Shown here: positions 4,134 through 33,475 of the stretch, one piece after another
Layout of the letters: each line of letters begins with the position of its first letter
How positions within the stretch are numbered: the first letter of the stretch is position 1
NCBI GenBank assembly: GCA_016282135.1
Contig: JAEEKA010000066.1
Span: forward strand, 1 to 34,741
DNA: 34,741 nt
Source: Oscillospiraceae bacterium
GTDB taxonomy: Bacteria > Bacillota > Clostridia > Oscillospirales > Oscillospiraceae
Direction: 5' to 3'
The notes under the pieces: model-generated
Databases searched by the model: none
What the model was told of the DNA's origin: nothing
Seen by the model: the letters and a program-made list of their open reading frames with translations, nothing else
Translations under genes and position numbers: made by a program

Positions 4134-4163
4134 CACTCGTTATTTGTCACCTGTCACTTGCCC
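4134..4163 (-). repeat. GTGACAGGTGACA element over the flavoprotein stop codon
   Basis: Read on the minus strand, CAAGTGACAGGTGACAAATA runs across the end of the flavoprotein frame and supplies its last residues (QVTGDK) and the stop. Similar elements end the carboxypeptidase, the M50 protease and SpoIIID genes. Confidence 0.65.
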
Positions 4164-5588
4164 TGCCGCTGCGTTTGCCGCCGCGTAGGCCGTGCTCCAG
4201 GCGATTTGCAGGTTGAAGCCGCCGGTGTAGGCGTCTACGTCGATGACTTCCCCGGCGAAGTAGAGGCCGGAGACCAGCTTGCTCTCCATGGTCTTGGGGT
4301 CGATCTCCTTCGTGCTGACGCCGCCGGAGGTGATGATGGCCTCCTCCACCGGGCGCAGGCCGGAAATCTTCACGGTAAAATGCTTCGTCAGCTCCAACAG
4401 CGCCCGGCGCTGCTCCCGGGTGACGGCGTTCACCTTGGTATCCCCCGGAATGCCGGAGCGGGCCACCATCACCGGGATCATAGTCTTTGGATAGAGGCCG
4501 GAAAGGGCGTTCTCAAAGCTGCGGTTTTTGCTGTCGGCAAAGTCCCGGAGGATCCGGGCGTCCAGCTTCTCTTCATCCAAAGCTGGCTTCAGGTCGATTT
4601 CAATTATGTAAACTTTCCCCTGCTCCATGTGGGCGGAGGCAGAGAGGATCACCGGGCCGGAGAGGCCGAAATGGGTGAAGAGCAGCTCGCCGAACTCCTC
4701 AAAGACAGGCTTGCCCCGTTCCTGCGTGTAGGGACGAGCATCGCTCGTCCGCGGACAAGCAATGCTTGTCCCTACGGCGGGATCAGCAGGCGCTTCATAG
4801 AGCCGGACGTTCACGTTTTTCAGGGCCAGGCCCTGCATTTGGGCGCACCAGGGGCCCTCCTCCACCAGGGGGACCAGGGAACCCACGGGCGGCACGATGC
4901 TGTGGCCCAGGGCCTTGGCCATCCGGTAGCCGTCGCCGGTGGATCCGGTGGCGGGATAGGACTTGCCGCCAGTGGCCAGGATCACCGCCGGGGCAAAGAA
5001 ATCGCCCTTGTCGGTATGGACGCCAACGACCCGCAGCCCTGCGTTCATTGCCTTTCCTTGGAGGGAAAGACTTTTGGGGATGGGGGATGCGGATTCTTCG
5101 CTTTGCTCAGAATGACAGACTGGGGAAGCCTCTGCGGGCTGCGGGCGGCCGGTGACCGCCCCTGCCGCACTTTCCGTCAGGATTTCCCTGGCCCGGGTCC
5201 GGACGATCTCCACCCCGGCGTAGTCCAGGGCGGTTTTCAGGGCCTCCAGCACCGAGGCAGATTTGTCCGTCACCGGGAAGACCCGGTTGCCCCGCTCGGT
5301 TTTGGTCTCACAGCCGTGGGACTCAAAAAAGCTGATGGCGTCCTCGGGGGTAAAGCCCGAGAGGGCCGAGTAGAGAAAGCGGGGGTTCCGGGGGACGTTT
5401 TTCAGTACCTCCTGCCAGGGGCAGTTGTTGGTGAGATTGCAGCGTCCCTTGCCGGTGATAAGCAGCTTCCTGCCCAGCCGGTCGTTGGGCTCCAGCAGCA
5501 GCACCTTCGCCCCGGCATAGCCCGCCTGGATCGCGGCGAACATGCCGGCAGCCCCGCCGCCAATCACAATTACGTCGTAGTTATTCAT
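4140..5588 (-). CDS. HI0933/YhiN-type NAD(P)/FAD-dependent oxidoreductase with repeat-derived inserts
   Basis: Flavoprotein of the HI0933 family (aminoacetone oxidase-like); the substrate is not established. The N-terminal FAD-binding Rossmann motif is VIGGGAAGMFAAI (residues 8-20), followed by GRKLLITGKGRCNLTN, a family signature. ATGGKSYPATGSTGDGY and the C-terminal GGVSTKEIDPKTMESK and GLYFAGEVIDVDAYTGGFN blocks complete the fold. At 482 residues it is about 70 longer than I expect. The excess sits in two stretches of repeat DNA read in frame: about residues 140-182 (GRPQPAE, CHSEQSEESA, LSLQGKA) and about 267-290 (VGTSIACPRTSDARPYT). No good Shine-Dalgarno is seen; a GAATTGAGAATT repeat occupies that place. 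It lies upstream of the cmk cluster, interrupted by the lipoprotein gene. Confidence 0.88.
   Translation of the reverse strand: MNNYDVIVIGGGAAGMFAAIQAGYAGAKVLLLEPNDRLGRKLLITGKGRCNLTNNCPWQEVLKNVPRNPRFLYSALSGFTPEDAISFFESHGCETKTERGNRVFPVTDKSASVLEALKTALDYAGVEIVRTRAREILTESAAGAVTGRPQPAEASPVCHSEQSEESASPIPKSLSLQGKAMNAGLRVVGVHTDKGDFFAPAVILATGGKSYPATGSTGDGYRMAKALGHSIVPPVGSLVPLVEEGPWCAQMQGLALKNVNVRLYEAPADPAVGTSIACPRTSDARPYTQERGKPVFEEFGELLFTHFGLSGPVILSASAHMEQGKVYIIEIDLKPALDEEKLDARILRDFADSKNRSFENALSGLYPKTMIPVMVARSGIPGDTKVNAVTREQRRALLELTKHFTVKISGLRPVEEAIITSGGVSTKEIDPKTMESKLVSGLYFAGEVIDVDAYTGGFNLQIAWSTAYAAANAAAGQVTGDK
4728..4777. repeat. Double palindrome inserted in the flavoprotein gene
   Basis: Two related palindromes lie back to back: GGACGAGCATCGCTCGTCC, then GGACAAGCAATGCTTGTCC, flanked by GTAG and CTAC. 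They are read in frame as VGTSIACPRTSDARPYT. Relatives of these palindromes occur near 2450, 9970, 14350 and 16550. Confidence 0.85.
5045..5165. repeat. Composite repeat insert in the flavoprotein gene
   Basis: This block holds a GGCGGCCGGTGACCGCC palindrome with its flanking GCGGGCTG (5131-5165). It also holds one copy of the TCATTCTGAGC...GCGAAGAATCC unit in minus orientation (about 5092-5118), the same unit that forms the tandem array at 33,190-33,475. A CCTTGGAGGG remnant follows. All are translated in frame in the flavoprotein. Confidence 0.8.
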
Positions 5589-5625
5589 GGTTTCAATTCT
5601 GAATTCTCAATTCTCAATTTCTCTA
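5586..5625. repeat. GAATTGAGAATT run in the flavoprotein leader
   Basis: Tandem TTGAGAATTGAGAATTCAGAATT sequence directly precedes the flavoprotein start on the minus strand and replaces a normal ribosome-binding site. Similar runs lie near 8150, 17,145, 18,874-18,955 and 20,983-21,015. Confidence 0.75.
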
Positions 5626-6129
5626 CTGCTCCCAGGGGGCGGGCTTGTCCTGTTGGGCAGCCGCCTTCCGTTCCTGCATCCGGGGGCGAAGCCGGAACAA
5701 ATACAGCGTAATGCCGCCGATCAGGGTAAACACCAGGCCGATGAAGCCGCAGATCAAGCTGCCCAGCCAGCCCCAGAAGCCGATCAAAATCACATCCTCG
5801 GGGTTCTCCGGGTCATAGGCCACCCGGAGCTCGTCTCCCACGGAAAACGTGGCCGAATACACCCCCACCGTGGTCTGCCGAGGGCTTCCCTCCACCAGGT
5901 ACTCCACCACGGTCCTGTGGGTGTCCGAGTCGTCGTGATGCTCCACGTCAAAGCCGACGATCACCGCATCGGTCCTTACGTAGCTTTCCAGCTTGTGGGC
6001 ATGCCGGACCGCCAGGAACCCGGCAATCGCCAGCAGGATCAGCCCCGCCGCCAGAAATACCAGGAAAATCCATTTACCGCCGGTGCCGCGGGGATCCATG
6101 CTTTTGTTGCTTCCATAACTCGTTTGCAT
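5623..6129 (-). CDS. DUF3592 family membrane protein
   Basis: Small membrane protein of 168 residues with the DUF3592 layout. One transmembrane helix comes near the N-terminus (WIFLVFLAAGLILLAIAGFL), then a soluble beta-rich domain (AVIVGFDVEHH...TVVEYLVEG...SVGDELRVAYDPENPEDVIL), then a second long hydrophobic segment (WLGSLICGFIGLVFTLIGGI). The tail is charged. Function is unknown. AAGGAG lies ten bases before the ATG at 6129; an upstream TTG at 6138 would be too close to that site. It stands among other small membrane proteins between the pseudouridine synthase and the flavoprotein. Confidence 0.82.
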   Translation of the reverse strand: MQTSYGSNKSMDPRGTGGKWIFLVFLAAGLILLAIAGFLAVRHAHKLESYVRTDAVIVGFDVEHHDDSDTHRTVVEYLVEGSPRQTTVGVYSATFSVGDELRVAYDPENPEDVILIGFWGWLGSLICGFIGLVFTLIGGITLYLFRLRPRMQERKAAAQQDKPAPWEQ

Positions 6130-6241
6130 GTAATTCAAACTCCTTGTGCGAGCAAAGTCAGGGCTTTTTCCCTTCTTGAGAGGACACAGCAGTCCCCCAA
6201 TATACCCGGTCTTGCCCTGAAAAATCTCCTGATTCCCTCTG

Positions 6242-6493
6242 TTATGAAGATTGGGAAAGCAAAGAAGCGGTCATCAGTCCGGCCAGGACGACCGCGGCCG
6301 CTGCGCCGATCCAGGCCACGACGAGATAACAGTCGCATTTCTTCCGCAGATCCAGAATCGTTGTTTTTTTCTTGGCCTGTATCAGACGCTTTTTGGTTTG
6401 AAAATAGTAGAAGAAACTAAGAAATGATTTGACCGCCAAAAGCACCATGAGAAAGCCATAATACAGAGCTGCGCTGTGAGAATCAATATTCAT
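6242..6493 (-). CDS. Small two-helix membrane protein, unknown
   Basis: An 83-residue protein that I cannot assign to a family. Two hydrophobic segments (about residues 10-30 and 58-77) flank a basic cytosolic stretch (QTKKRLIQAKKKTTILDLRKKCD). GGGAGG lies eight bases before the ATG. The gene overlaps the end of the next gene upstream (6483-7112) by 11 bases, so the two are probably co-translated and may act together. Nothing in the sequence indicates a specific role. Confidence 0.7.
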   Translation of the reverse strand: MNIDSHSAALYYGFLMVLLAVKSFLSFFYYFQTKKRLIQAKKKTTILDLRKKCDCYLVVAWIGAAAAVVLAGLMTASLLSQSS

Positions 6494-7112
6494 TATAGCA
6501 TCCTCCCGTCGGCGCGGAAAGGGTGACGTATGGCAGCGAATGCGACCCGCGGTATTCGTCCAGCTTTGCCCAAGATTGCGCCGTAATGCACAGCACAGCG
6601 GTGTTGGGATTTGATATCTTCGCTTTCTTCCACAGGTAGACTGTCAGCATCACCTGCCGTCGCTGCTCCTCCGTCATGCTGGAGCCGTCGTAACCGTAAT
6701 GCGCCGCAACGCTTGCCAGCTCTTTTGCGTGTTTTCCTGCAAACGACCGGATCTTCTCGGCGGAGGAGACGCAGAAAAACAGCATTGGCTCCGCGCCGTC
6801 TTCCTGATAGCGACCCATGGCGTACAGATCCGCCAGGCGGAATTTCCGGTAAGTATATCGTTTCCGCTTCACCGTAACATTGTCTGCGTCGATCAGACAG
6901 CGTGGCTTGTCAAACCAGCTCGGAAGCTCAATCGCAAGAAGAATCGCGGCAAAGATCAGCCCGGATTTCCAATGAACCAGGAAATATGCTGCAAGCAACA
7001 GGACAGGCAAAAAAGCGTACTCCAAATAGGATATCGGCCAGTTTTCCTCCCTGCGGCGATAGAAGAGCGCGGGACAGCTTAGAACCAGCTTTTCGTTATT
7101 CGTTTCCTTCAT
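6483..7112 (-). CDS. Membrane protein of unknown function
   Basis: A 209-residue protein with two close hydrophobic segments near residues 28-62 (YLEYAFLPVLLLAAYFLVHW and GLIFAAILLAIEL). A soluble region follows, possibly PH-like, beginning CLIDADNVTVKRKRYTYRKFRLADLYAM. I do not recognise a catalytic motif. Its ATG overlaps the rluB stop (ATGA), so it is read in the same transcript, and its end overlaps the 83-residue gene. The pair may form a small membrane unit. Base composition here is slightly lower in GC than in rluB. Confidence 0.75.
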   Translation of the reverse strand: MKETNNEKLVLSCPALFYRRREENWPISYLEYAFLPVLLLAAYFLVHWKSGLIFAAILLAIELPSWFDKPRCLIDADNVTVKRKRYTYRKFRLADLYAMGRYQEDGAEPMLFFCVSSAEKIRSFAGKHAKELASVAAHYGYDGSSMTEEQRRQVMLTVYLWKKAKISNPNTAVLCITAQSWAKLDEYRGSHSLPYVTLSAPTGGCYNEY

Positions 7113-8122
7113 GGTTTTCCATACTCAATTTCTGTTGATTCAGCTGCAAGGCGTTTCAGCTCCGCCGCCGTCAGGGGCCGCCACTGGCCGGGCTTCAGAT
7201 CGCCCAGTTGGACAGGACCCTCGGAAATGCGCTTCAGACGGGTGGTTTTCAGCCCCGCGGCCTCCGCCATCCGGCGAATCTGCCGGTTGCGGCCCTCGTG
7301 GATGGTGATTTCCAGCAGGGCGGTTCCGGCACGTGCTGCCGCAGCGGCGCACGCCGGTGCGCCATCCGAAGCAATCCGTTGTCGGAGCACCACCTCATCC
7401 GCCCCCTGCGGGGGCACCTTCCCCTCAAGGGGAAGGCATTTCCGGGTCTCTGCGGGCTGGGGGCGGCCGATGACCGCCCCTACGGATTCGGGCGTCTCGG
7501 GCGGGCGGCCAATGACCGCCCCTACGGGCTCTGAACCCTGAACCCTGACCCCTGAACCACACCCTGATCCCTGATCCCTGACCCCTGATCCATCATTTTG
7601 CATCCCCCCGGCCCAGATCAGCCGCACCTGGGGAGGCTTGATGCGATAGCCGTCCAGGATGATGGGACGGCGGAGCTTTTCCAAAGCCCCGTCATGCCAG
7701 CCGGACACCCAGAGAAGATAGGTCTTGCAAACCTCCCCCCTGGGATGGGTCAGGCGGTTGGCCAGGGCCCCGTCGTTGGTCATCAGCAGCAGGCCCTCGG
7801 AGAACTGGTCCAGCCGACCCACGGGATAGAGCCGCCCCAGCTCGGCAGGCAGAAGCTCCGCCACGGTGGGTCGGCCCTTTTCGTCCTGCATGGTGGTGAC
7901 CACGCCCCGGGGCTTATAGAGCAGGACGGTGGCAGTCCGGGCCGAGGCCTTGGGCAGCGGGCGGCCCTCCACCAGGATTTCGTCGGTCTCCGGGTCCGCC
8001 GTATCGCCAAGCCGGGCAAGGTTCCCATTGACGGTAACCTTGCCCCGGATGATCCATTCCTCCGCCGTCCGCCGGGAGCAGAGCCCGGCAGCGGCGATCA
8101 ATTTTTGCAGTCGTTCGTTCAT
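7109..8122 (-). CDS. rluB: RluB/RsuA-family rRNA pseudouridine synthase with large repeat-derived insert
   Basis: Converts a specific uridine in rRNA to pseudouridine. An S4 RNA-binding domain covers residues 1-60 (RLQKLIAAAGLCSRRTAEEWI). The catalytic aspartate is D105 in GRLDQFSEGLLLMTNDG, and ALLEITIHEGRNRQIRRM is the C-terminal family motif. At 337 residues it is about 90 longer than usual. The excess (about 172-265) is entirely repeat DNA read in frame: a CCCTGAA/CCCTGAT run (GSGVRDQGSG), two GGCCGCCC palindromes (VGAVIGRP twice) and a 96-bp composite repeat (LPLEGKVPPQGADEV...SDGAPACAA). The insert falls between two conserved blocks, presumably a surface loop. Shine-Dalgarno is weak (GAAAAGAA). 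rluB is chosen over related family names by context; the rRNA target site is not certain. Confidence 0.87.
   Translation of the reverse strand: MNERLQKLIAAAGLCSRRTAEEWIIRGKVTVNGNLARLGDTADPETDEILVEGRPLPKASARTATVLLYKPRGVVTTMQDEKGRPTVAELLPAELGRLYPVGRLDQFSEGLLLMTNDGALANRLTHPRGEVCKTYLLWVSGWHDGALEKLRRPIILDGYRIKPPQVRLIWAGGMQNDGSGVRDQGSGCGSGVRVQGSEPVGAVIGRPPETPESVGAVIGRPQPAETRKCLPLEGKVPPQGADEVVLRQRIASDGAPACAAAAARAGTALLEITIHEGRNRQIRRMAEAAGLKTTRLKRISEGPVQLGDLKPGQWRPLTAAELKRLAAESTEIEYGKP
7341..7436. repeat. 96-bp composite repeat, copy 1 (inside rluB)
   Basis: A GGCGCACGCCGGTGCGCC palindrome, about 25 variable bases, then GCCCCCTGCGGGGGC and CCTTCCCCTCAAGGGGAAGG palindromes. A second copy of the same length and order lies at 14,137-14,232 in copA; I count about 83 of 96 matching positions by hand. 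Both copies are translated in the same frame and orientation, giving the identical peptide LPLEGKVPPQGADEV. Confidence 0.88.
7449..7528. repeat. Two GGCGGCC...GACCGCC palindromes inside rluB
   Basis: Two related units, GGCGGCCGATGACCGCC and GGCGGCCAATGACCGCC, each followed by CCTACGG. They are read as VGAVIGRPQPAE and VGAVIGRPPET. A related unit in the flavoprotein gene (5131-5165) gives AGAVTGRPQPAE. Confidence 0.85.
7531..7592. repeat. CCCTGAA/CCCTGAT tandem run inside rluB
   Basis: Seven- to eight-base units (CCCTGAA, CCCTGAC, CCCTGAT) repeat across about 60 bases and are read on the minus strand as GSGVRDQGSG...GSGVRVQGSE. A shorter relative at 10,043-10,100 encodes GSEVQDQGS at the end of the DUF2953 protein. 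Confidence 0.8.
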
Positions 8123-8175
8123 GTTCTTTTCGTTGTCGCCAAAGGCGGCTCAGAATTGAGAATTGAGAGTTATCG

Positions 8176-8205
8176 GAGTTTCGCAAATTGCAATTTGCGA
8201 AACTC
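8176..8205. repeat. Perfect 30-bp palindrome between the carboxypeptidase gene and rluB
   Basis: Arms GAGTTTCGCAAATTG and CAATTTGCGAAACTC meet with no spacer. It lies downstream of the carboxypeptidase stop. There is no T-run typical of a terminator. It could form a cruciform or long RNA hairpin, or be a protein-binding site. Confidence 0.85.
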
Positions 8206-8221
8206 ATTCAATTGTCACTTG

Positions 8222-9244
8222 TCAATTGCTGCCCCAAACGACTGGAATCTCCCCCACGGGTTTCCCGTTCAGGAAAACCTTCACCGTTCCTGCGGCCGCG
8301 CCGGAGAGCAGGTCGGAACTCAAACCGGGGCAGAAGACCAGCCGGGGTTCCTCGTCGGGGGCCAGGCGGAGGGTCAGATCGGCCTGGGCAACCAGCGGCG
8401 CTCCCATGGGCGCGGTAAGCAGGGTCTCGCCCTTCACCGCCACGGGCCGGGCCTCATAGCGGGCGAAGCCCCAATCCAGCAGGGCAACGTGGTCCTGCCA
8501 ATCGGCGGGATCGTTGACGGTGACGCAGATCAGGGTCCGGCCCTCCCGCCGGGCGGCGCTCACCAGGAGTCGGCCCGCGGCCCGGGTATAGCCGGTCTTC
8601 ACCCCGATGCAGCCAGGGCAGCGCCAGAGCAGCTTGTTGTGGTTGGTCAGCACCCGCTCCCCCGCCACCTTGACGGACTTTGTGCCGCAGATTCGCAGAA
8701 AATCCGGGTTTTCCAGAGCCTTGGCCGTCAGCAGTGCCAGGTCCCGGGCGGTGCTGTAATTGCCCTCGCTGTCCAGGCCGTGGGGATTGGCGTAGTGGGT
8801 ATTTTGCAGGCCAAGACGGCGGGCCGCCTCGTTCATCCGCTCCACAAAGGCCGCCTCGCTGCCGCCTACGTCAATGGCCAGGGCCAGGGCGGCGTCGTTG
8901 CCGGATTGGACCATGGCGCCGTAGAGCAGCTCCTCCCGGGTCAGGGTCTCCCCCTCCTTCAAATACAGGGAAGTTCCCTCCACCCCAACGGCCTCCGCCG
9001 GGACGGTGACGGGCCGGTCCAGGTCTCCGGCCTGACAGGCCAGCCAGGCCGTCATGATCTTGGTGGTGGAGGCGATCAGCCCCGGGTTGTCCGGGTGGCG
9101 GGCATAGAGCAGCGCCCCCGTGTCCGCGTCCATCACCACGGCGCAGCCTGCGGAAACGGCGGGCGCTGGGCTCCCGAAAGCGGGCAAAGGAAGCCAGCCG
9201 ACGGCGATGCATAGTACCGTCAGCAAAACAACGATTCGTTTCAT
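8222..9244 (-). CDS. D-alanyl-D-alanine carboxypeptidase (penicillin-binding, S11 family)
   Basis: Removes the terminal D-Ala from peptidoglycan stem peptides outside the membrane. The 340-residue product has a signal peptide (residues 1-24), then the three active-site motifs of the S11 serine peptidases: SxxK at S59-K62 (STTK), SGN at 114-116 and KTG at 216-218. A C-terminal beta-rich domain follows (VKGETLLTAPMGAP...). No clear C-terminal amphipathic anchor is seen. GGGTGA lies upstream of the ATG. It follows ytfJ, a placement usual for the DacF/DacB sporulation-linked type, so a spore cortex role is plausible. The last residues (GSN) and stop come from an AATTGACAAGTGACAATTGA repeat. Confidence 0.92.
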   Translation of the reverse strand: MKRIVVLLTVLCIAVGWLPLPAFGSPAPAVSAGCAVVMDADTGALLYARHPDNPGLIASTTKIMTAWLACQAGDLDRPVTVPAEAVGVEGTSLYLKEGETLTREELLYGAMVQSGNDAALALAIDVGGSEAAFVERMNEAARRLGLQNTHYANPHGLDSEGNYSTARDLALLTAKALENPDFLRICGTKSVKVAGERVLTNHNKLLWRCPGCIGVKTGYTRAAGRLLVSAARREGRTLICVTVNDPADWQDHVALLDWGFARYEARPVAVKGETLLTAPMGAPLVAQADLTLRLAPDEEPRLVFCPGLSSDLLSGAAAGTVKVFLNGKPVGEIPVVWGSN

Positions 9245-9316
9245 ATTTCATCACCCGGGAACAGGATGCCCCGGATAGCGACAAAATATGCGCGTTCAGA
9301 CAATCGGCAACAGGCG

Positions 9317-9724
9317 TCAGGCCTCCGGGTCCGCCTCCGGCTTGGCCTTTCGGCCGTCCAGGAAATCAGCCAGCTTGTCCATGAGCTCGGGGGCCTGCTC
9401 CACGATGCGGTCCACGGTGGAGGAGGCGGGCTCGGCCACGGGGAGCATCCGGACGGTCTTGCCCTGGATCACCAGGAAGGCCACGGGGTCGATGTTCACG
9501 CCCGCGCCCATGCCGCCGCCGAAGGGGTCCTTCTTGGCAGCCACGGAGCTCTTGGTGGCAAAGTCGGTGCCGCCGCCGCCCATGCCGATATGGACCTTGG
9601 AAATGGGAATGATGGTGACGTCCTCGCTCACCTTTACCGGCTGGCCCACGATGGTGTTTACGTCCACCATCTTCTGCATCCGCTCCATTGCGGAGGAGAT
9701 CATCTCGGAAATGTTGTTTGTCAT
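9317..9724 (-). CDS. ytfJ: Sporulation protein YtfJ (GerW family)
   Basis: Small cytosolic protein of 135 residues of the spore-associated YtfJ/GerW family, needed in Bacillus for normal spore germination. Visible signatures are an N-terminal helix (ISEMISSAMERMQKMVDVNTIVG), KVSEDVTIIPISKV, the glycine-rich GMGGGGTDF, GGGMGAGVNIDPVAFLVI, and an acidic tail. The ATG at 9724 is chosen because GGTGG precedes it by about eight bases and the family usually starts here; a longer reading would cross repeat DNA. It lies between the DUF2953 gene and the carboxypeptidase gene, the usual clostridial order. It supports a spore-forming host. Confidence 0.92.
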   Translation of the reverse strand: MTNNISEMISSAMERMQKMVDVNTIVGQPVKVSEDVTIIPISKVHIGMGGGGTDFATKSSVAAKKDPFGGGMGAGVNIDPVAFLVIQGKTVRMLPVAEPASSTVDRIVEQAPELMDKLADFLDGRKAKPEADPEA

Positions 9725-10042
9725 GTTCGGGTACCACCTTTCCGTTATTTTCACATTAAAGGATTGCGGATCAGCGATTGCGGGAGGCAGGCGCACGCTG
9801 CGCGCCCCTGCTGCGCTGTAACACTCAAAACTTGACGCAGGGACAGGTGCCTGTCCCTTCATGGGTATTGCTTGCCCGGCATTCGGAACGAATGCAATTT
9901 GCAGGAGGCAAATCGATTCGGATGAACGCAGAATCGCCTGACGGCGATTGTTTGCTTCGCAAACGTGGACGAGCAATGCTCGCCCCTACGCTGTAAACTT
10001 TTTGCGGTTACATGATCCTACATACCCTGATCCCTATGGCCG
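9725..10042. other. Repeat-rich spacer between DUF2953 gene and ytfJ
   Basis: No gene is seen. The spacer is a chain of short palindromes: GGCGCACGCTGCGCGCC (about 9788), GGGACAGGTGCCTGTCCC (about 9840), and ATTCGGAACGAAT followed by ATTTGC...GCAAAT (about 9880-9915). These are followed by CGCCTGACGGCG (about 9936), then TTTGCTTCGCAAA with GAGCAATGCTC (9948-9990). The last unit recurs in reverse at 16,541-16,586, and the ATTCGGAACGAAT unit recurs in reverse at about 16,658-16,694. Confidence 0.75.
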
Positions 10043-10774
10043 TCAGCTTGCCGACGCTGCGGACTCCGATCCCTGATCTTGGACCTCTGAACCCGCGCCG
10101 ACCTTGGCGGCCTGCTTCTTGGCCTTTCTCTGCTTCAAGTACAGCCGCAGGGCCCGCCAGGCGTATTTCAGGCCCAGCAGGATCACGCCGCCCACCCGGA
10201 TGCGGATGGCCAGCTCGGCCTCTACGTCCGTCTTGGAGGCGGTAAAATCGGGATAGACCGCAATCCTCCGCTCCTTGATGCGGAAGCCCCGCTCCAGAAT
10301 GGGAACGGCCACACCGATGGTTTCCCATGCCTTGCCCACGGTCAGGGCGGTCTTGGCCGGATCGCCTCCCGCCAGCGCCGCCCGGATGCGCAGCCGGGTG
10401 ACGGTGAGCTTCCGGCGGAAGAACTCGCCCACAAAATTCGCGCCAAGCTTGGCCCAGGGGATCAGCGCCGCGATCTTGTCGGTGAGGGGCTGCTTGGGCT
10501 TGGGGGGCTCCGTGGGCTTGGCAATCAGAGTCTGGGCGGCGGCATCCTTCTTCTTTTTCGCCTTGGCCTCCGCCTTTTTGGCGGCCTTGGCTGCCTTCTT
10601 GGCCTCCTGCTTTTCCCGCTTCTTCCGGGACAGAGGCTTCTTGGGAATGATGCCGATTTTCACAAAGAGGATCGAGAGCCGCAGCTCGATCCGTTCATGA
10701 TACGCGAAGTAAACGCTGACCGGAATGCAGCCGATCAGGAAGAATACGGCGGCGATGATCAGCAGAACTTTCAT
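10043..10774 (-). CDS. DUF2953 domain membrane protein
   Basis: A 243-residue protein. An N-terminal transmembrane helix (residues 3-22) is followed by a long Lys/Ala-rich, probably helical, charged region (about 48-85: KKREKQEAKKAAKAAKK...). The DUF2953 domain follows (TVTRLRIRAALAGGDPAKTALTVGKAW...ITERRIAVYPDF), with a C-terminal hydrophobic stretch. Function is unknown; the family is found beside ytfJ in spore-forming Clostridia. The ATG overlaps the scpB stop (ATGA). The last 19 or so residues (GSEVQDQGSESAASAS) are encoded by CCTGATCC-type repeat DNA and match the insert in RluB, so the original C-terminus has probably been replaced. Confidence 0.85.
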   Translation of the reverse strand: MKVLLIIAAVFFLIGCIPVSVYFAYHERIELRLSILFVKIGIIPKKPLSRKKREKQEAKKAAKAAKKAEAKAKKKKDAAAQTLIAKPTEPPKPKQPLTDKIAALIPWAKLGANFVGEFFRRKLTVTRLRIRAALAGGDPAKTALTVGKAWETIGVAVPILERGFRIKERRIAVYPDFTASKTDVEAELAIRIRVGGVILLGLKYAWRALRLYLKQRKAKKQAAKVGAGSEVQDQGSESAASAS

Positions 10775-11397
10775 TGTTGAATGCCCTCCATGACCGTTTG
10801 GGCCGGAGCGGCGCCCGCGTCGCTCCCGGCGGGTGGGGTGGAGGCGTCGGCCTCCGCGGGCTCCGCCTCGGCAGAGGCGCTGAACTGGACCTTCTCCATC
10901 TCCGGCAGCCCCTCCAGAGATTCCAGGCCGAAGGTGCGCAGGAAGTCCGGGGTGGTGCGGTAGAGGATGGGGCGGCCCGGGGCGTCCAGACGACCGTTCT
11001 CCTCGATGAGCTTCTTATTCAGCAGGGCCGCCACGGAATAGGCGCTGTCCACCCCCCGGAGCTTCTCCACGAAGGCCTTGGTGGTGGGCTGATAATAGGC
11101 GATGATGGTGAGGGTCTCCAGTTGGGAGGCGGAGAGCTTGGGGGGCTTCCGGGTCTCCAGAGCCTTGGTGACCCAGGGGGCCAGGTCGTTCTGGGAGCAC
11201 ATCTGCCAGCTGTCCTCCAGCCGGAGGATGCGGATGCCCCGGCGTTCGAAGGCGTAGAGATCCGCCAACTCCCGCAGGGCCTCCCGGACCTCGTCGGGAT
11301 CGGTCTCGGCAACGAAGCTCAGCCGCTCCGTCTCCACCGGCTCCCCGGCGGCAAAGAGGATCGCCTCGCAGATCCGCTGCAATTCCTTACGCTCCAT
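10771..11397 (-). CDS. scpB: Segregation and condensation protein B
   Basis: Winged-helix partner of ScpA in the SMC-ScpAB condensin that organises and segregates the chromosome. The 208-residue product shows two winged-helix regions: ELQRICEAILFAAGEPVETERL at the N-terminus, then LSASQLETLTIIAYYQPTTKAFVEKLRGVDSAYSVAALLNKKLIEE...GRPILYRTTPDFLRTFGLESLEGLPEM, the family signature. A Glu/Ala-rich tail follows. Its start overlaps the end of scpA by 11 bases and its stop overlaps the DUF2953 gene start, so the three are one translational unit. Confidence 0.95.
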   Translation of the reverse strand: MERKELQRICEAILFAAGEPVETERLSFVAETDPDEVREALRELADLYAFERRGIRILRLEDSWQMCSQNDLAPWVTKALETRKPPKLSASQLETLTIIAYYQPTTKAFVEKLRGVDSAYSVAALLNKKLIEENGRLDAPGRPILYRTTPDFLRTFGLESLEGLPEMEKVQFSASAEAEPAEADASTPPAGSDAGAAPAQTVMEGIQQ

Positions 11398-12184
11398 TGG
11401 CTTCCTCCTCGTTGTCCGGGACCCGGATCAGACGGAGGCTGGTCTCTCCGCCCGCTTCCTCCAGCTCCACGGCATTGTTTCTGCACAGCTCCAGCACGGC
11501 CAGGAAGGTGGCCACGATCTCCGACCGGCTCCGACAGCCCTTGAACAGGCGGCGCAGGGCGCTGACGCCCCGGAGCAGGAGCTTTTTCAGCAGCTCGGCG
11601 GTCTTTTTGCCCACGGGATAGGGCTCCCGGCCCACAATGCCCTCAAAGCTGGCCTTGGGGGGCGGCAGGAGCTTTTTACTCCGCTCGGAAAGGGTCTCAA
11701 AGGCCCGGAGCAGGTCCGTGGGCTCGTGGCGGTACCGGTAGGTCCGGTCCCGCTCAAAGGGCTCGGGACCCTTGGTGAATAGGCCCAGACCCAGCTCGTT
11801 CCGTCCCTCCAAAAAGGCGGCGGCGCTGCGGATCTTTTCGATGGCGTCCGCCCGCTGGCGCTCCTGGAGGGATTGGATCAGGAGCTCCATCTCCGACTGG
11901 GCCTCCGCCTGCTCGGCGGCGGAGAGCAGCATCTTCGTCTTGATGAGCATCAGATGGGAGGCCATGGCGATAAATTCGCTGGCAATCTCCATATCCATCC
12001 GCTTCATCTCGTCCAGGTAGGCCAGGTACTGCTCCAGAATGGCGGCAATCGAGATGTCTTCGATTTCTATTTTGTTCTTGCTCAGCAGGAGCAGGATCAC
12101 GTCCAGGGGCCCGTCGAAGTCCTCCACGGTCTCGTCCCGGGATTTCACCACGCCTGTGAGGTGGTATTTGGGTTCGTCTGTCAT
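11387..12184 (-). CDS. scpA: Segregation and condensation protein A
   Basis: Kleisin subunit that bridges SMC heads in condensin. The 265-residue product has the family start (DFDGPLDVILLLLSKNKIEIEDISIAAILEQYLAYLDE), the following helical block (ASEFIAMASHLMLIKTKMLL) and the C-terminal winged helix (AVFLAVLELCRNNAVELEE region). The ATG at 12,184 is chosen because MTDEPKYHL is a typical beginning and AAGAAG lies eight bases upstream. A longer frame to 12,319 would be read through repeat DNA. It is followed at once by scpB. Confidence 0.95.
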   Translation of the reverse strand: MTDEPKYHLTGVVKSRDETVEDFDGPLDVILLLLSKNKIEIEDISIAAILEQYLAYLDEMKRMDMEIASEFIAMASHLMLIKTKMLLSAAEQAEAQSEMELLIQSLQERQRADAIEKIRSAAAFLEGRNELGLGLFTKGPEPFERDRTYRYRHEPTDLLRAFETLSERSKKLLPPPKASFEGIVGREPYPVGKKTAELLKKLLLRGVSALRRLFKGCRSRSEIVATFLAVLELCRNNAVELEEAGGETSLRLIRVPDNEEEANGA

Positions 12185-12343
12185 AGGTTTGTCTTCTTGT
12201 CGATCGGTAGATATTGTAGCGGCGCACACCGGTGCGCCACGGTTCAAGGTTCCGCCTGCTGTGGCGCGGGCAATCCGCCCGCAGACAACACAGGGGACTG
12301 TTCCCTGTGTTCGTGTCACCCGTCAACTGTCACCTGTCAATTG
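12185..12343. repeat. Repeat cluster between M50 gene and scpA
   Basis: Contains GTAGCGGCGCACACCGGTGC with its palindromic partner (12,217-12,242; same family as 7341 and 14,137), GCGGGCAATCCGCCCGC, ACAGGGGACTGTTCCCTGT (about 12,290-12,310) and a GTCAACTGTCACCTGTCAAT element (about 12,322-12,343). The last of these abuts the M50 stop codon. No gene is seen. Confidence 0.75.
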
Positions 12344-13060
12344 TTATCCGCCGGCAAGGAGCTGGGCCAGGGGACGGGCGATGGCGCCGATGCCGCTGAT
12401 GAGGCCCTTCACCAGGAAAGACAGGGGCCCGGTCAGGACGCCCATCCAAAGCAGGGCGATCAGCAGGAGCATCCCGTAGCGCTCATACTGCATCAGCAGG
12501 GCGTATGAATCCTCCGGCAGCACGATGGCCAGGATCTTAGAGCCGTCCAGCGGGGAAATGGGGATCAGGTTGAACACCGCCAGACCCGCGTTGAGGCTCA
12601 GGCAGGCCCAGAGAAGCTGGCTGAGATAGCCCATCGCGCTGCCCTTTGGCCCGGCCAGGAAGTAGTATTCCCCATTGTAATCGGCGCCGATCCCCCAAAA
12701 CGCCAGGCCAAACAGCAGGGCCAGCAGCAGATTGGAAATCGGCCCCGCCGCGGCGGTGAGGGCCATACCCAGCTTGGGGCTCTTGATCTTTGTCATCCGG
12801 TAGGGATTGATAGGAACGGGCTTGGCCCAGCCGAAGTGGGCCACCACCATCATCACAAAGCCCACCGGGTCCAGGTGGCGCAGGGGATTAAGGCTGATGC
12901 GCTTCATGCGCTTGGCGGTATCATCCCCCAGCCAGTAGGCAGACAGGGCGTGACTGCTCTCGTGAACGGAAATGGAAATCATCGCCGCGGCAGCGAACAT
13001 CAGCCATTCAATGATCCGGTCCGGGTTGATTCCCTGGAACCATCTGCTTAATTCGGACAT
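12344..13060 (-). CDS. Site-2 protease family (M50) membrane metalloprotease
   Basis: Intramembrane zinc protease of 238 residues. The zinc-binding motif is H33-E34-S-S-H37 in the first membrane segment, and the second conserved motif NPLRHLDPVGF supplies the third ligand. Several hydrophobic segments follow (AAAGPISNLLLALLFGLAFWG; LLWACLSLNAGLAVFNLIPISPLDGSKIL). NLIPISPLDG is the family's NxxPxPxLDG-type motif. The type resembles YwhC/RseP-like proteins next to scpAB in many Firmicutes; the substrate is unknown. GGGAG lies seven bases before the ATG. It is the first gene after the promoter at 13,133-13,161. The stop codon lies in a GACAGGTGACAG repeat. Confidence 0.92.
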   Translation of the reverse strand: MSELSRWFQGINPDRIIEWLMFAAAAMISISVHESSHALSAYWLGDDTAKRMKRISLNPLRHLDPVGFVMMVVAHFGWAKPVPINPYRMTKIKSPKLGMALTAAAGPISNLLLALLFGLAFWGIGADYNGEYYFLAGPKGSAMGYLSQLLWACLSLNAGLAVFNLIPISPLDGSKILAIVLPEDSYALLMQYERYGMLLLIALLWMGVLTGPLSFLVKGLISGIGAIARPLAQLLAGG

Positions 13061-13132
13061 TACATTACTCCCGACGGGAAGCCCGCAGCCGAAAAAGGCT
13101 GCTGCTCCTCCAGATTACATAGTTTGTATAAT

Positions 13133-13161
13133 ATTGTATCACAGTTTTTCCCGTTTCGCAA
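13133..13161 (-). promoter_or_regulatory. Promoter of the M50-scpA-scpB operon
   Basis: On the minus strand TTGCGA (13,156-13,161) is separated by 17 bases from TACAAT (13,133-13,138). The first gene downstream is the M50 protease. A GCAGCC-GAAAAA-GGCTGC hairpin (13,085-13,102) lies in the leader. Confidence 0.65.
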
Positions 13162-13172
13162 GTATCGTAAAC

Positions 13173-15938
13173 TCATTTCACAGTTTTTTTGAATTTGTAG
13201 CCTGCGGCCTTGACGGCGGCCCGCAGGGCGGCCTCCGGGACCTCGCCCCGGATTTTTACCAGGCCGGTCCGGAAATCGGCCTCCGCAGATTCCACCCCCG
13301 GCAGAGCCTCCAGGGCCTCCCGCACATGGCGCTCGCAGTTGTGACACATCATGCCCTTGACCATGACCACGACGGCGTGTTCCCCTGCTGCTTCCTCTTC
13401 ACGTCTCCTATTGCCTGTTGCCTGTTGCTTATTGCCTAACTTCACCCAATTCAGCCGCAGGGCGTTGGTCACCACGCAGAAGCTGGACAGGCTCATGGCT
13501 GCCGCGCCAAACATCGGGTTCAGGGTCCAGCCAAAGGCCTTGATAAAAGCGCCGGCGGCCAGGGGGATGCCGATGGTGTTGTAGAGGAAGGCCCAGAACA
13601 GATTTTCGTGGATGTTCCGCAGGGTGGCCCGGCTCAGCCGGACCGCGGCGGGGACGTCGGAGAGCTTGCTCTTCATCAGCACCACGTCCGCCGCGTCCAC
13701 GGCCACGTCCGTGCCCGCGCCGATGGCGATGCCCACGTCCGCCCGGGTCAGGGCCGGGGCGTCGTTGATGCCGTCCCCCACCATGAGGACGGGCCCCCGA
13801 GCCTGGAGCTGCCGGATTACCGCCTCCTTGCCCTCGGGCAGGACCCCGGCCACTACCTCGTCCACTCCCGCCTGGTCCGCGATGGCCCTGGCTGTGCGTT
13901 CGTTATCGCCAGTTAACATAACTACATGAATTCCCATGTTTTGTAACTCTTTGACGGCAGCGGGGCTTTCCGGCTTGAGCACGTCCGCCACGGCGATCAG
14001 TCCCAGCAGACGGTCTGCGTGAGCAAAGAGCAGGGGCGTTTTACCTTGAGCGGCCAGGGCGTCGGCGCTTTGCAGGACGGACGGACGGCAGAGCGCCGTC
14101 CTTGCAGCGGTCTGTGCATCGTTCGCACCGTCCCCTGTAGCGGCGCACACCGGTGCGCCACCGGAAGCAGTTCCTTGTTGCGTCTCCACCTCATCCGCCC
14201 CCTGCGGGGGCACCTTCCCCTCGAGGGGAAGGTTTTGCAGGCGCTCGCTGACGAATTTGACGCTGCCGCCGATGAGGGGCTTGCCGTCCAGCATCGCCTC
14301 CAGTCCATTGCCGGGCAGGGCGCGGAAGTCGGTGACGGCATTCTGCGGACAAGCAATGCTTGTCCCTACACACTCTGAACTCCGAACCTGCGGGACAGGG
14401 AACCCGTCCCCTACGGACTCTGAACCGCCAGCGTCCCGTGGCGCACCGGTGCGCGCCGCTGCATGGGCCGCGGCATAATCCACAATCGCCCGGGCCAGGG
14501 GGTGCTCGCTGCGCTGCTCCAGGGCCAGGGCGGCGGCGAGGAGCTCCTCCTCCGTGACGCCCGCCGCAGGCAAAATGTCCGTGACGGTGGGGGCCCCGGT
14601 GGTAATAGTGCCGGTCTTATCCAGGGCCGCGATTTTCGCCTTGCCGGTCTGCTCCAGAGAGACGGCGGTTTTGAAGAGGATCCCGTTTTTCGCGCCCACT
14701 CCGCTGCCCACCATGATGGCCACTGGGGTAGCCAGGCCCAGGGCGCAGGGGCAGGAGATCACCAGCACGGAGATGCCCCGGGCCAGGGCGTAGGAAAATT
14801 CCCGCCCCACCAGGAGCCAGATGACCGTGACGATGACCGCGATGGAGATCACGGCGGGAACGAAGATTCCCGAGACCCTGTCCGCCGCCTTGGCGATGGG
14901 GGCCTTGGTCGCCGCCGCGTCGGAGACCATTTTGATGATCTGATTCAGGGTGGTGTCCTCCCCCACCCGGGTGGCCCTGGCCTTCAGCCAGCCGGACTGA
15001 TTGACGGTGGCGGCGGAGAGGCTGTCCCCTGGGGCCTTATCCACAGGAATGGATTCCCCCGTCAGGGCGGATTCATTGACGGCGGAGCTGCCCTCCAACA
15101 CCACTCCGTCCACCGGGACGGCCTCCCCCGGCCGGACAATGAAAAACTCATCCTTCCGCAGCTGGGCCACAGGGACCGTAAGCTCCGCTCCCTCCCGGAG
15201 CACCGTTGCGGTCTGGGGTGCCAGCTTCATCAAGCCCTTCAGGGCGTCGGTGGTCCGGCCCTTGGATTTTGCCTCCAGCATCTTTCCCACGGTAATCAGG
15301 GTCAGAATCATGGCGGCGGATTCAAAATAAAATTCCTCCATGTATTCCATCACCTCGGCGGCGTCCCCGTCGACCTGGGCACGGGTCATGGCGAAGAGGG
15401 CGTAAACCGACCAGACAAAGGAGGCTGCGGAGCCCAGGGCCACCAGGGTATCCATATTGGGCGCCCGATGGGCCAGGGCCTTAAAGCCGGAGAGAAAGAA
15501 GCGCTGGTTGATGACCATGACGATAGCCGCCAGCAGAAGCTGGACCAGGCCCATGGCCACGTGGTTATCCTTAAACCATTCTGGCAGGGGGAAGCCCCAC
15601 ATCATGTGGCCCATGGAAAAGTACATGAGGACCAGCAGGAAGCCCAGGGACCAGAACAGCCGCTTTTTCAGCTTTGGAGTCTCCCGGTCCGCCAAGGCGT
15701 CTGCGGCCTGGGAGGAGGCGGAGGCGGCGTGTTCGCCGCTTTCCTTTTGGGAGGCCCCGTAGCCCGCCGCGGTGACGGCAGCGATGACGGCGGCAGGATC
15801 GGCGCTGCCCTCCACCCCCATGGAGTTGGTCAGAAGACTCACGGCGCAGGATTCCACACCGGGCACCGCCTTCACCGCCTTTTCCACCCGGGCCGAGCAG
15901 GCGGCGCAGCTCATGCCGGTGACGTCGTATTGTTTCAT
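13173..15938 (-). CDS. copA: Copper-translocating P1B-type ATPase with repeat-derived inserts
   Basis: Exports Cu(I) across the membrane using ATP. An N-terminal heavy-metal domain carries MSCAAC (C11, C14). The membrane region is followed by the CPC metal site (SCPCALGLATP, about 395). The phosphorylated aspartate is D440 in DKTGT. SEHPLARA is the nucleotide-binding HP motif, and GDGINDAPAL lies near 720. A second, C-terminal metal domain carries MMCHNC (about 862-867). Length is 921, far above the usual 750-830. The excess lies in the nucleotide-binding domain at about 488-533 (GAPRDAGG, VGTSIACP) and about 568-626 (LPLEGKVPPQGADEV...), plus a linker (about 834-853, GNKQQATGNRR). All are repeat DNA read in frame. 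csoR lies upstream in the same transcript. Confidence 0.93.
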   Translation of the reverse strand: MKQYDVTGMSCAACSARVEKAVKAVPGVESCAVSLLTNSMGVEGSADPAAVIAAVTAAGYGASQKESGEHAASASSQAADALADRETPKLKKRLFWSLGFLLVLMYFSMGHMMWGFPLPEWFKDNHVAMGLVQLLLAAIVMVINQRFFLSGFKALAHRAPNMDTLVALGSAASFVWSVYALFAMTRAQVDGDAAEVMEYMEEFYFESAAMILTLITVGKMLEAKSKGRTTDALKGLMKLAPQTATVLREGAELTVPVAQLRKDEFFIVRPGEAVPVDGVVLEGSSAVNESALTGESIPVDKAPGDSLSAATVNQSGWLKARATRVGEDTTLNQIIKMVSDAAATKAPIAKAADRVSGIFVPAVISIAVIVTVIWLLVGREFSYALARGISVLVISCPCALGLATPVAIMVGSGVGAKNGILFKTAVSLEQTGKAKIAALDKTGTITTGAPTVTDILPAAGVTEEELLAAALALEQRSEHPLARAIVDYAAAHAAARTGAPRDAGGSESVGDGFPVPQVRSSECVGTSIACPQNAVTDFRALPGNGLEAMLDGKPLIGGSVKFVSERLQNLPLEGKVPPQGADEVETQQGTASGGAPVCAATGDGANDAQTAARTALCRPSVLQSADALAAQGKTPLLFAHADRLLGLIAVADVLKPESPAAVKELQNMGIHVVMLTGDNERTARAIADQAGVDEVVAGVLPEGKEAVIRQLQARGPVLMVGDGINDAPALTRADVGIAIGAGTDVAVDAADVVLMKSKLSDVPAAVRLSRATLRNIHENLFWAFLYNTIGIPLAAGAFIKAFGWTLNPMFGAAAMSLSSFCVVTNALRLNWVKLGNKQQATGNRRREEEAAGEHAVVVMVKGMMCHNCERHVREALEALPGVESAEADFRTGLVKIRGEVPEAALRAAVKAAGYKFKKTVK
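13400..13438. repeat. CCTATTGCCTGTTGCC heptamer run inside copA
   Basis: Tandem CCTATTG/CCTGTTG/CTTATTG units encode the linker GNKQQATGNRR between the last membrane region and the C-terminal metal domain of CopA. A similar run at 3041-3075 is intergenic. Confidence 0.75.
14137..14232. repeat. 96-bp composite repeat, copy 2 (inside copA)
   Basis: Same order and length as 7341-7436: GGCGCACACCGGTGCGCC, a 25-base variable part, GCCCCCTGCGGGGGC, then CCTTCCCCTCGAGGGGAAGG. It is read in frame and yields LPLEGKVPPQGADEV and SGGAPVCAA in CopA. Confidence 0.88.
14330..14470. repeat. Composite repeat insert in the CopA nucleotide-binding domain
   Basis: Includes GGACAAGCAATGCTTGTCC (14,345-14,366), GGGACAGGGAACCCGTCCC (about 14,391-14,410) and GGCGCACCGGTGCGCGCC (about 14,440-14,457). 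They are read in frame as VGTSIACP, VGDGFPVP and ARTGAPR. Confidence 0.82.
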
Positions 15939-16424: not shown

Positions 16425-16868
16425 GAGGGAACAGTTAATGCATAATGCATAGTGCATAATGCATAATTGAGCCCGCCCCACACGCACCCGCCGTAGGGGC
16501 GCACAGTGTGCGCCCGCCCGGGCAGAGGCTTCCTGTTACCGCCGTAGGGACGAGCATTGCTCGTCCGGTTTGCGTAGCAAACAATCTTATGCGTCAGCAG
16601 ACGATCCAGCCGGGTGCGTTGTATTGCACCGGTCGCGGCGTTGCGGCCCGGCTGGATTTGCCTTGCGGCAAATTGCGTTCGTACCGAACGCCGGAGCGAT
16701 GTGGGCATCGCTCCCTACGGGGGACGGGGCGTCGTGGGCGCCGCCCCCTACAAGCGGTGCCTGGTGACTGGTGACTGGTGACTGATCCCTCATTTTGCCC
16801 CTTGCATCCTGCATTCCTCCCCCGGTGGCTGCATAGACTTGCGTAACCCATGCTTGGGAGGTGCGGAT
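16425..16868. other. Gene-free mosaic of palindromic repeats between csoR and spoIIID
   Basis: No gene is seen. In order: an ATGCATAATGCATAGTGCAT run (16,436-16,466); GGGGCGCACAGTGTGCGCCC (about 16,496-16,515); GGACGAGCATTGCTCGTCC with TTTGCGTAGCAAA (16,541-16,586); and a stem of ATCCAGCCGGG and CCCGGCTGGAT (16,604-16,657). Then come TTTGCC-TTGC-GGCAAA, GTTCGGTACGAAC-like sequence (to about 16,694), GAGCGATG...CATCGCTC (about 16,695-16,713), GGGGCGTCGTGGGCGCCGCCCC, and a GGTGACT run (16,759-16,785). The spoIIID promoter should lie at the right end, but I cannot define it. Confidence 0.75.
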
Positions 16869-33189: not shown

Positions 33190-33475
33190 TCCCCCGTCAT
33201 TCTGAGCGCAGCGAAGAATCCGCGCCTCGTCCCCCGTCATTCTGAGTGCAGCGAAGAATCCGCGCCCCGTCCCCCGTCATTCTGAGTGCAGCGAAGAATC
33301 CGCATCCCCAGTCCCCCGTCATTCTGAGCGAAACGAAGAATCCGTGCCCCGTCCCTCGTCATTCTGAGTGCAGCGAAGAATCCGCGCCCCGTCCCCCGTC
33401 ATTCTGAGCGAAGCGAAGAATCCGCGCCCCGTCCCTCGTCATTCTGAGCGAAGCGAAGAATCCGTCTCCCGTGCC
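33190..33475. repeat. Seven-copy 40-bp tandem repeat
   Basis: GTCATTCTGAG occurs at 33,196, 33,236, 33,276, 33,318, 33,358, 33,398 and 33,438, so the period is 40 bases (one 42). Each unit is TCATTCTGAGCGAAGCGAAG, then AATCCG and about 13 bases of CGCCCCGTCCCC. The parts between cores are nearly the same, so this is not a CRISPR array. A single relative of the core lies inside the HI0933-type flavoprotein gene at about 5092-5118. Confidence 0.93.

Follow-up and report, generated by a model that had tools for sequence, protein, structure and literature searches.

Mobile Palindromes in Other Bacteria

GTAG-tagged REPs, including copies inside genes, were described in 2013 by Di Nocera et al. 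(PMC3733652). In the available text of that paper, these elements are palindromes of 20–40 bp with a GTAG tag that form head-to-head doublets, lie mostly between genes and have RAYT genes as neighbours, all of which holds for the repeats reported here. A minority resides within ORFs of enzymes, among them repair and tRNA enzymes, and takes the form of singles, dimers or groups that code for 20–82 amino acids. A word search of the main text returned neither “Firmicutes” nor “Clostridi”. The present host, by contrast, is a rumen Oscillospiraceae lineage, where about one third of the copies of one family (F1) fall in ORFs, several REP families are stacked with non-REP repeats in a single loop, and one and the same loop contains units that vary across species.

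Dispersed inverted REP doublets together with a RAYT gene are also known as the REPINs of Pseudomonas (Bertels and Rainey 2011, PMC3116915). The accessible part of that study counts copies in extragenic space, whereas six of the 12 F1 doublets found here are in ORFs. The REPtrons of E. coli, Stenotrophomonas and Marinomonas, as outlined in the sections available (PMC8266576), resemble the loci discussed below in pairing an HUH transposase gene with neighbouring REPs of its own family; here the host belongs to the Clostridia. Coxiella elements with a GTAG REP appear in the accessible text of another paper (PMC5896051), and of four papers found that mention RAYTs together with Clostridi, one deals with RAYTs themselves (PMC6006769).

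The Rickettsia palindromic elements (RPE), 105–146 bp long according to the text available (PMC2229807), share with the present inserts a tolerated in-frame fusion into conserved enzymes and a presence both in genes and between them. They differ from the elements here, which have other sequences, GTAG units of 22–27 bp, several stacked families and a transposase at hand. The inserts work like RPE but are not RPE, their GTAG units falling outside the RPE size range. No report of in-gene REPs or RPE-like inserts in this lineage was found in the literature searched, and a search for RAYTs, REP sequences and Firmicutes together returned nothing, subscription papers being mostly outside its reach. 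As kinds of element, in-gene REPs and RPEs have already been published. A few other bacteria show such a phenomenon, but in the present group of rumen bacteria it has an unusual density and variety and returns to the same points.

Inserts in Three Conserved Enzymes

The window analysed is a stretch of 34,741 nucleotides, and the three enzyme genes and their inserts lie on its minus strand. The HI0933-type flavoprotein gene (4140–5588, 482 aa; Pfam HI0933_like and HI0933_like_1st; TIGR00275, 435.8 bits) contains two inserts. The first (about aa 142–183, 5040–5165) consists of a unit of the GTAG-REP family F2 (AGAVTGRPQPAE), whose GTAG tag is degenerate in this copy, the F5 repeat CHSEQSEES, and a short unit, LSLQGKA, that resembles half of F3. 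The second (about aa 266–290, 4719–4793), delimited by orthologue alignment and an F1 search, holds an inverted F1 doublet (REPIN) at 4728–4775. The RluB-type pseudouridine synthase gene (7109–8122, 337 aa; TIGR00093; Pfam S4 and PseudoU_synth_2) has one long insert (about aa 171–264, 7331–7612), mapped by repeat comparison and orthologue alignment, with heptamer arrays at 7531–7592, two F2 units at 7461–7485 and 7503–7527, an F3 double hairpin at 7391–7435 and an F4-like unit at 7340–7365.

The same approach yielded two inserts in the CopA-type P-type ATPase gene (13173–15938, 921 aa; TIGR01525, 591 bits; E1-E2_ATPase; two HMA stretches). Insert 1 (about aa 493–532, 14343–14462) comprises an F4-like unit (14434–14460) and the GTAG-REPs F7 (14391–14416) and F1 (14347–14369); insert 2 (about aa 569–622, 14073–14234) comprises an F3 double hairpin (14187–14231), an F4 GTAG-REP (14137–14159) and an F8-like unit recognized by eye. 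A heptamer-type repeat, KQQATGNRR (with putative borders at 13402–13438, minus strand), lies N-terminal of the C-terminal HMA stretch (857–915).

All the recurring peptides of the original prediction were located in the translations: LPLEGKVPPQGADEV (F3) in RluB (230–244) and CopA (570–584), VGTSIACP in the flavoprotein (272–279) and CopA (524–531), VGAVIGRPQPAE in RluB (214–225) with its counterpart AGAVTGRPQPAE in the flavoprotein (142–153), and GSGVRDQGS in RluB (178–186) with GSEVQDQGS in the DUF2953 protein (228–236). At the DNA level, RluB and CopA share 108 nt at 83% identity. The description of the repeats as palindromic does not apply to all inserts; GSGVRDQ in RluB, for one, derives from tandem heptamers. 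Likewise, in-frame insertion was recovered for RluB, the flavoprotein and CopA, whereas the heptamer-type repeat of the DUF2953 protein (10067–10093, minus strand) forms a C-terminal tail and is not demonstrable as an insertion.

Between the genes of the window, an F1 copy with one mismatch lies at 2446–2468, two GTAG-REPs (GTAGGGGCGCACAGTGTGCGCCC and F1) at 16493–16566, and a tandem array of the F5 repeat GTCATTCTGAGCGAAGCGAAGAATCC with a unit of about 40 bp at 33194–33470, all on the plus strand. At 9967–9989 (minus strand), F1 sits on the 5′ edge of gene 9317–9976, a copy counted as intergenic. This case and 12216–12238 in gene 11387–12319 probably lie upstream of the true starts, and neither was taken as an insertion.

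In the AlphaFold models, the inserts of the flavoprotein and RluB are predicted as low-confidence loops on intact folds. Values of pLDDT below 50 cover residues 149–181 and 269–288 of the flavoprotein and 176–263 and 330–337 of RluB, and are partly due to a thin alignment at the inserts. From these models, the loops may be disordered inside the cell.

Orthologues with and without Inserts

Alignment with orthologues delimited the inserts of RluB, the flavoprotein and CopA against short segments, and the over-length of the three enzymes proved to consist of in-frame stacks of dispersed repeats. RluB had a match in 56 of 59 genomes, and 30 loci were examined. The segment that spans 128 aa in the window is 36 aa long in 12 of the 21 same-genus sequences and 32–37 aa in all nine from other genera; in the remaining nine of the genus, the window's included, it ranges from 61 to 168 aa. 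The segment around the first flavoprotein insert measures 73 aa against 29 aa in insert-free orthologues. When a loop at least 10 aa above base length is called long, 7 of 21 same-genus sequences have a long loop at flavoprotein site 1, 14 of 20 at site 2 and 9 of 17 in the CopA region, the CopA of genome G020 being excluded because the gene halves are in different frames in the contig. A recognizable repeat is present in some, not all, of the long segments.

The carriers of inserts, some of them essential enzymes, also include methionyl-tRNA synthetase (MetRS), DNA polymerase III alpha (DnaE) and carboxynorspermidine decarboxylase (NspC), and filled and insert-free orthologues could be aligned for five genes (RluB, flavoprotein, CopA, MetRS and NspC). 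One loop holds unrelated repeat families in different species, both in the RluB, flavoprotein and CopA set and in NspC. The original prediction of RPE-like in-frame inserts with other sequences and several stacked families was borne out in unrelated conserved enzymes. No pair of near-identical genomes turned up in which a site is empty in one and occupied by exactly one REP in the other. A RecG-domain protein carries a repeat at aa 211–229, far before its first RecG domain, and was discounted as a case of RecG insertion.

The same-genus genomes are fragmented into some 60–300 contigs, and assemblers are prone to fail at repeats, so that the inserts could be artefacts of the assembly or binning of MAGs. 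However, several MAGs hold different inserts at the same points of RluB, the flavoprotein and CopA, which disfavours assembly error. At the RluB point, eight further genomes of the genus have a long open-frame segment with lineage-specific content, and the carriers of flavoprotein inserts include named MAGs from different projects. An artefact is thus extremely improbable.

Anatomy and Distribution of the GTAG-REPs

Most of the palindromic families are GTAG-tagged REPs, in which GTAG precedes a short hairpin and which often form inverted doublets (REPINs). The original prediction recognized neither this nor the presence of RAYT genes in the same genome and genus. F1 (GTAGGGRCRAGCAYYGCTYGTCC, up to one mismatch) occurs in 66 copies in the 2.51-Mb genome, spread across many contigs, against none for the reversed-sequence control, and so is not a chance repeat. 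A GTAG preceding a hairpin was found at 184 sites in 887,629 bases, compared with 6–42 for ten other tags; the 123 sites of TAGG represent the GTAG element shifted by one base. The units are mostly 22–27 bp with stems of at least 7 bp, although the scan criteria themselves demanded such hairpins. The conserved 5′ tag, stem of 6–13 bp, short loop and unit of 20–40 bp agree with the GTAG-REP superfamily. Where adjacent F1 copies are separated by less than 160 bp, the pair is inverted with GTAG outside in 12 of 12 cases. The base before GTAG is C or T in 91% of 32 internal copies, and this pyrimidine fits the CT next to the REP at which the E. coli TnpA_REP cuts, as given in the available sections of PMC8266576. 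Around 171 GTAG units, the flanking sequences have little in common beyond about two bases.

The genome-wide count was carried out for F1. It did find in-gene copies: 24 of the 66 overlap an ORF and 21 are internal, two of them in a low-scoring ORF (L311:1474–2604) that may be no gene. The remaining 42 are intergenic although the sampled DNA is 84% coding, which amounts to a depletion in genes; 124 of the 184 GTAG hairpins are intergenic as well. In a self-BLAST, 293 segments fell into a single mixed repeat cluster: 212 lie between genes, 37 near gene ends and 44 inside genes, some of these last being possibly chance coding matches. A de novo 13-mer count returned short fragments only. No GTAG was found beside the palindromes or units of F3, F5 and the heptamer arrays. 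These three are not classed as REPs, and a mover was found for none of them.

RAYT Genes Beside the Same Families

The genome of the window (G000) has a probable RAYT (REP-associated tyrosine transposase) gene on contig C64 (28711–29190) between F1 copies at 28671–28693 (plus) and 29232–29254 (minus). Its product has an HIH motif; NF047646 (REP-associated tyrosine transposase) is its sole NCBIfam match, at 62.6 bits against a cut-off of 80, and it scores 22.2 bits against PF01797 (25.4 with its neighbours; cut-off 23). Two further RAYT genes, on contig C81, are flanked by elements of one family, F9. The HUH motif was found in 26 of 27 RAYT loci, the window's own genome included.

The flank scan covered 27 loci, each positioned by its match; of the 30 in all, L285–L287 were excluded as fragments. 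A GTAG hairpin lies within 250 bp of 21 of the 27, compared with 40 of 177 control genes of similar size (p = 4e-8), and on both sides of 16 of the 27, compared with six of 177 (p = 3e-12); the scan overlooks the F1 copies that flank the loci on C64 of G000 and C132 of G006, which the F1 search reveals. Families that flank RAYT genes also occur within genes: F1 (G001, G006 and the window's genome), F2 (G020), F7 (G021), F8 (G003), F9 (C81 of the window's genome) and, by its stem, F4 (G012 and G004). This association suggests that RAYTs are the movers of the REPs. RAYT presence and F1 load are only loosely coupled, as there was no RAYT match in G008 (17 F1 copies) or G038 (36 F1 copies).

Reading Frames, Conservation and Spread

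The original prediction inferred that selection favours elements whose insertion leaves genes intact. Such elements would be stop-free, in-frame modules shaped by their own selection, or would encode functional peptides. In line with this, the frame that reads VGTSIACP is used by 9 of the 11 internal F1 copies of the same orientation, and inverted F1 doublets span a multiple of 3 nt more often within genes (five of six) than between them (one of six; one-sided p = 0.04). The latter bias, however, looks like a survivor filter rather than an adapted element. In ten element consensuses, 48 of 60 frames are open against 50.2 expected from shuffles. Internal F1 copies occur in both orientations and fill four of five open frames, though unevenly (9, 2, 5, 5 and 0; p = 0.025, with copies that are not independent), so one frame per element was rejected. 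Given also the depletion in genes, the inferred selection found no support.

The conservation of shared inserts could still speak for adapted elements. These inserts are near-identical across species in which much of the carrier gene has diverged: in ten hand-picked pairs, pS is 0.14 in the inserts and 0.314 in the flanks, so that the insert DNA is conserved above the synonymous sites of the flanks, a pattern not expected from simple neutral decay. In the same pairs, however, pN/pS is 0.58 in the inserts compared with 0.18 in the flanks, and the peptide is thus weakly constrained. Taken together, adaptation for coding or peptide function is very unlikely.

The same conservation bears on whether transposition or, instead, recombination and slippage between repeats (through gene conversion or interspecies exchange) is the main way in which the repeats spread. 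G006 and G007 also have identical sequence over the 60 nt preceding the CopA insert, and a block that occurs once in the CopA of G006 has an additional near-copy in that of G007; between G016 and G021, the NspC loop differs by 21 nt within a heptamer array. These observations favour recombination. It explains less well why RAYT genes are flanked by the same families, why unrelated families occupy one loop across species, and why F1 is scattered over many contigs and GTAG units have such variable flanks. As the main route, recombination is possible but rather unlikely.

The account that very probably holds is that RAYT-mobilised REPs and other repeats insert regardless of genes and that purifying selection keeps the in-frame survivors. 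REPs, single or as REPINs, would be mobilised in trans by RAYTs, HUH transposases of the same genome and genus, and would land, like the heptamer arrays, F3 and F5, without regard to genes. Purifying selection would purge copies that shift the frame, add a stop or strike structured parts, leaving genic survivors in frame and in loops or linkers. The survivors would be translated, as unstructured peptides. A tolerant loop may then gather additional units, which would account for the stacks and for the finding that different families occupy one point in different species.

Implications for Rumen Clostridia

These findings extend mobile palindromes that are probably translated to a lineage of rumen Clostridia and connect the copies within genes with RAYT genes of that genome and genus whose flanks match. 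Since orthologues with and without inserts are at hand in five enzymes, the old question becomes testable whether such inserts are merely tolerated or can turn into new parts of proteins. The annotation of MAGs and the domain databases for this group may hold repeat-derived peptides. A more tentative and rather unlikely reading is that loops of housekeeping enzymes are open sites where several RAYT/REP systems and further repeats can land, so that essential enzymes bear disordered cassettes that are quickly renewed, with interspecies likeness that comes from conversion or exchange at the DNA level and heptamer arrays that could switch the frame. If this were true, the genus would offer a natural insertion scan of the tolerance of its core enzymes.

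In-frame inserts in RluB, the flavoprotein and CopA

The original prediction held that palindromic repeats lie in frame inside unrelated enzymes, and the peptides that it named were located, with their DNA repeats, where it had placed them. In RluB, the HI0933-type flavoprotein and CopA, orthologues align on either side of the extra residues. An alignment of 30 loci gave an RluB segment of 128 aa for the window protein; of the 21 same-genus sequences, 12 have 36 aa here and the other eight besides the window protein have 61–168 aa, and the nine sequences from other genera all have 32–37 aa. When a segment at least 10 aa above the base length is counted as long, the flavoprotein is long in 7/21 (point 1) and 14/20 (point 2) same-genus sequences, and the CopA region in 9/17. 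The original prediction would have been refuted by repeat-free orthologues with equally long, unrelated loops at these points; given these lengths, this check did not refute it.

At point 2 of the flavoprotein, an F1 doublet is common to the window and genome G002, while a different family is found in G006 and G007, an F5-like unit in G012, an LPLEGKVPPQGADEV unit in G014, and a heptamer unit with F5 in G020. AlphaFold predicted the surrounding folds well, with pLDDT < 50 (segments of at least three residues) only at 149–181 and 269–288 of the flavoprotein, and at 176–263 and 330–337 of RluB; the underlying alignments had 33 and 13 rows, respectively, and few of these cover the inserts.

RluB of G006 (locus L005) contains about six tandem units of about 16 aa of the PVGGGVLDAPNPSRTET type, within an aligned segment of 168 aa in total. 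In CopA of G020 (L070, contig positions 41640–42060), the reading frame changes between the two halves at a GGGATCA heptamer array; a phase switch, gene decay or misassembly could each explain this.

Identity of the elements

The majority of the palindromic families here consist of GTAG followed by a hairpin. GTAG preceded a hairpin at 184 sites in 887,629 bases, against 6–42 sites for each of ten other four-letter tags; an eleventh control, TAGG (123 sites), is the same element, shifted. The 184 hairpins comprise 124 intergenic, 38 internal and 22 near gene ends, and some of the genic ones are background, since the tag controls also yield sites. F1 neighbours separated by under 160 bp form 12 pairs, all of them inverted with the tags outside. 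The tag, hairpin and inverted doublets match the features published for GTAG REPs and REPINs (PMC3733652, PMC3116915). F3, F5 and the heptamer arrays are without a GTAG tag and are something other than GTAG REPs. An F5 tandem array was seen at 33194–33470 of the window, and the same unit reads CHSEQSEES inside the flavoprotein; a window protein at 3071–4117 has 69-bp tandem repeats with repeated VTIPDSVT-like units.

Carriers elsewhere in the genome

The genome has 2,508,389 bases in 120 contigs (85.6% complete; the window is contig C78), and the named MAGs closest to it, from rumen and gut, are labelled Oscillospiraceae, Ruminococcaceae or Clostridia. Genes were called with a finder trained on the sample itself. 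Self-BLAST of 793,547 bases returned a single cluster of dispersed repeats; of its 293 segments, 44 lie within called genes. All 66 genome copies of the F1 palindrome (GTAGGGRCRAGCAYYGCTYGTCC, at most one mismatch) were fetched and placed: 42 are intergenic, 21 internal and three N-terminal. F1 carriers include methionyl-tRNA synthetase (NF008900, 903 bits), a uracil-DNA glycosylase-family protein, an MsbA-like ABC transporter, a PdxR-type regulator, an RNA methyltransferase (PF04452), an Orn/Lys/Arg decarboxylase and NspC (TIGR01047, 392.5 bits, slightly below the cut-off of 409). DNA polymerase III alpha (NF005298, 1636 bits) has an F9 unit at aa 330–339, within the DNA_pol3_alpha domain. 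All 20 proteins submitted to Pfam match at least one family.

Among these other carriers, orthologues were compared for MetRS and NspC. The F1 copy of MetRS (about aa 583–592) lies between the anticodon domain, ending at 550, and the tRNA-binding domain, starting at 627. The aligned segment spans 26–65 aa across 18 MetRS sequences and 33–88 aa across 14 NspC sequences, filled in both by differing units. The NspC loops of G021 (L361) and G016 (L362) differ by 21 nt within a heptamer array, a frame-keeping step. In a protein with RecG domains (L101:2426–5872), about 470 aa precede the first such domain, with a repeat at aa 211–229; this long N-terminal part may reflect a fusion or a wrong start.

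Reading frame and conservation of the inserts

Ten element consensuses have 48 of 60 frames open, compared with 50.2 for shuffles; openness follows simply from the units being short and rich in G+C. Of the five open frames of F1, internal copies occupy four (9, 2, 5, 5, 0; p = 0.025 against even use, with copies that are not independent). F1 overlaps an ORF in 24 of 66 copies, whereas 84% of the sampled DNA, taken partly around F1 copies, is coding. Doublet spans are 48, 48, 69, 69, 69 and 76 in genes, and 48, 74, 74, 148, 148 and 149 between genes. Together, these observations are consistent with the loss of harmful copies.

Pooled over ten hand-picked, non-independent congener pairs with a common insert (among L001–L090 and L321–L364), pS was 0.14 in inserts against 0.314 in flanks, and pN was 0.081 against 0.058. 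By these ratios (pN/pS 0.58 versus 0.18), the insert peptide is under less constraint than its flanks. The insert DNA is more alike between congeners than the synonymous sites of its own genes, which argues against simple tolerance. Direct alignments display this likeness (RluB of G005/G020, flavoprotein of G006/G007), which extends to the nearest flank in some pairs. It could reflect constraint on the DNA itself, local exchange or conversion templated by other copies.

Predicted RAYT genes and distribution

A predicted RAYT gene at C64:28711–29190 of the same genome is flanked by F1 at 28671–28693 (+) and 29232–29254 (−). Its product has the HIH motif and matches PF01797; the sole NCBIfam match is REP-associated tyrosine transposase, with a score of 62.6 bits that falls short of the cut-off, 80. 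Two further RAYT matches lie on C81, and the query matched in 25 of 59 genomes, this one included. RAYT loci were positioned by query matches and 27 were scanned: a GTAG hairpin lies within 250 bp at 21 and on both sides at 16, a scan that overlooks the F1 pairs at C64 and at C132 of G006, seen in the F1 copy search. Of 177 genes of similar size from the same genome, 40 have such a hairpin within 250 bp and six on both sides. The flanking families include ones read within genes, namely F1, F2, F7, F8, F9 and, by its stem, F4. Another Y1 transposase gene adjoins another palindrome, CAATCAGGGGACGGTTCTCTGATTG, on C8 (L241, about 2478–2519 and 2589–2921), and this palindrome recurs intergenically in L228.

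F1 is present in the genome itself, 20/22 congeners and 1/36 genomes of other genera, and F5 in the genome itself, 15/22 and 2/36. F5 is most abundant in G003 (171 copies, the highest of 59 genomes searched; 21 in the window's genome). RAYT presence and F1 load show no tight coupling: G008 has 17 F1 copies, and G038, from another family of the order, has 36, both without a RAYT match.

Overall reading

A dense case of GTAG REPs and companion repeats that are predicted to be translated is well supported. Most likely, RAYTs would move these elements, and selection would then filter the copies inside genes. REPs inside genes (PMC3733652) and Rickettsia elements of the same kind (PMC2229807) are already known. 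Within the open papers searched, the new points here are the lineage, the way several families stack, loops that are filled differently from one species to another, and the presence of matching predicted RAYTs in the genus.
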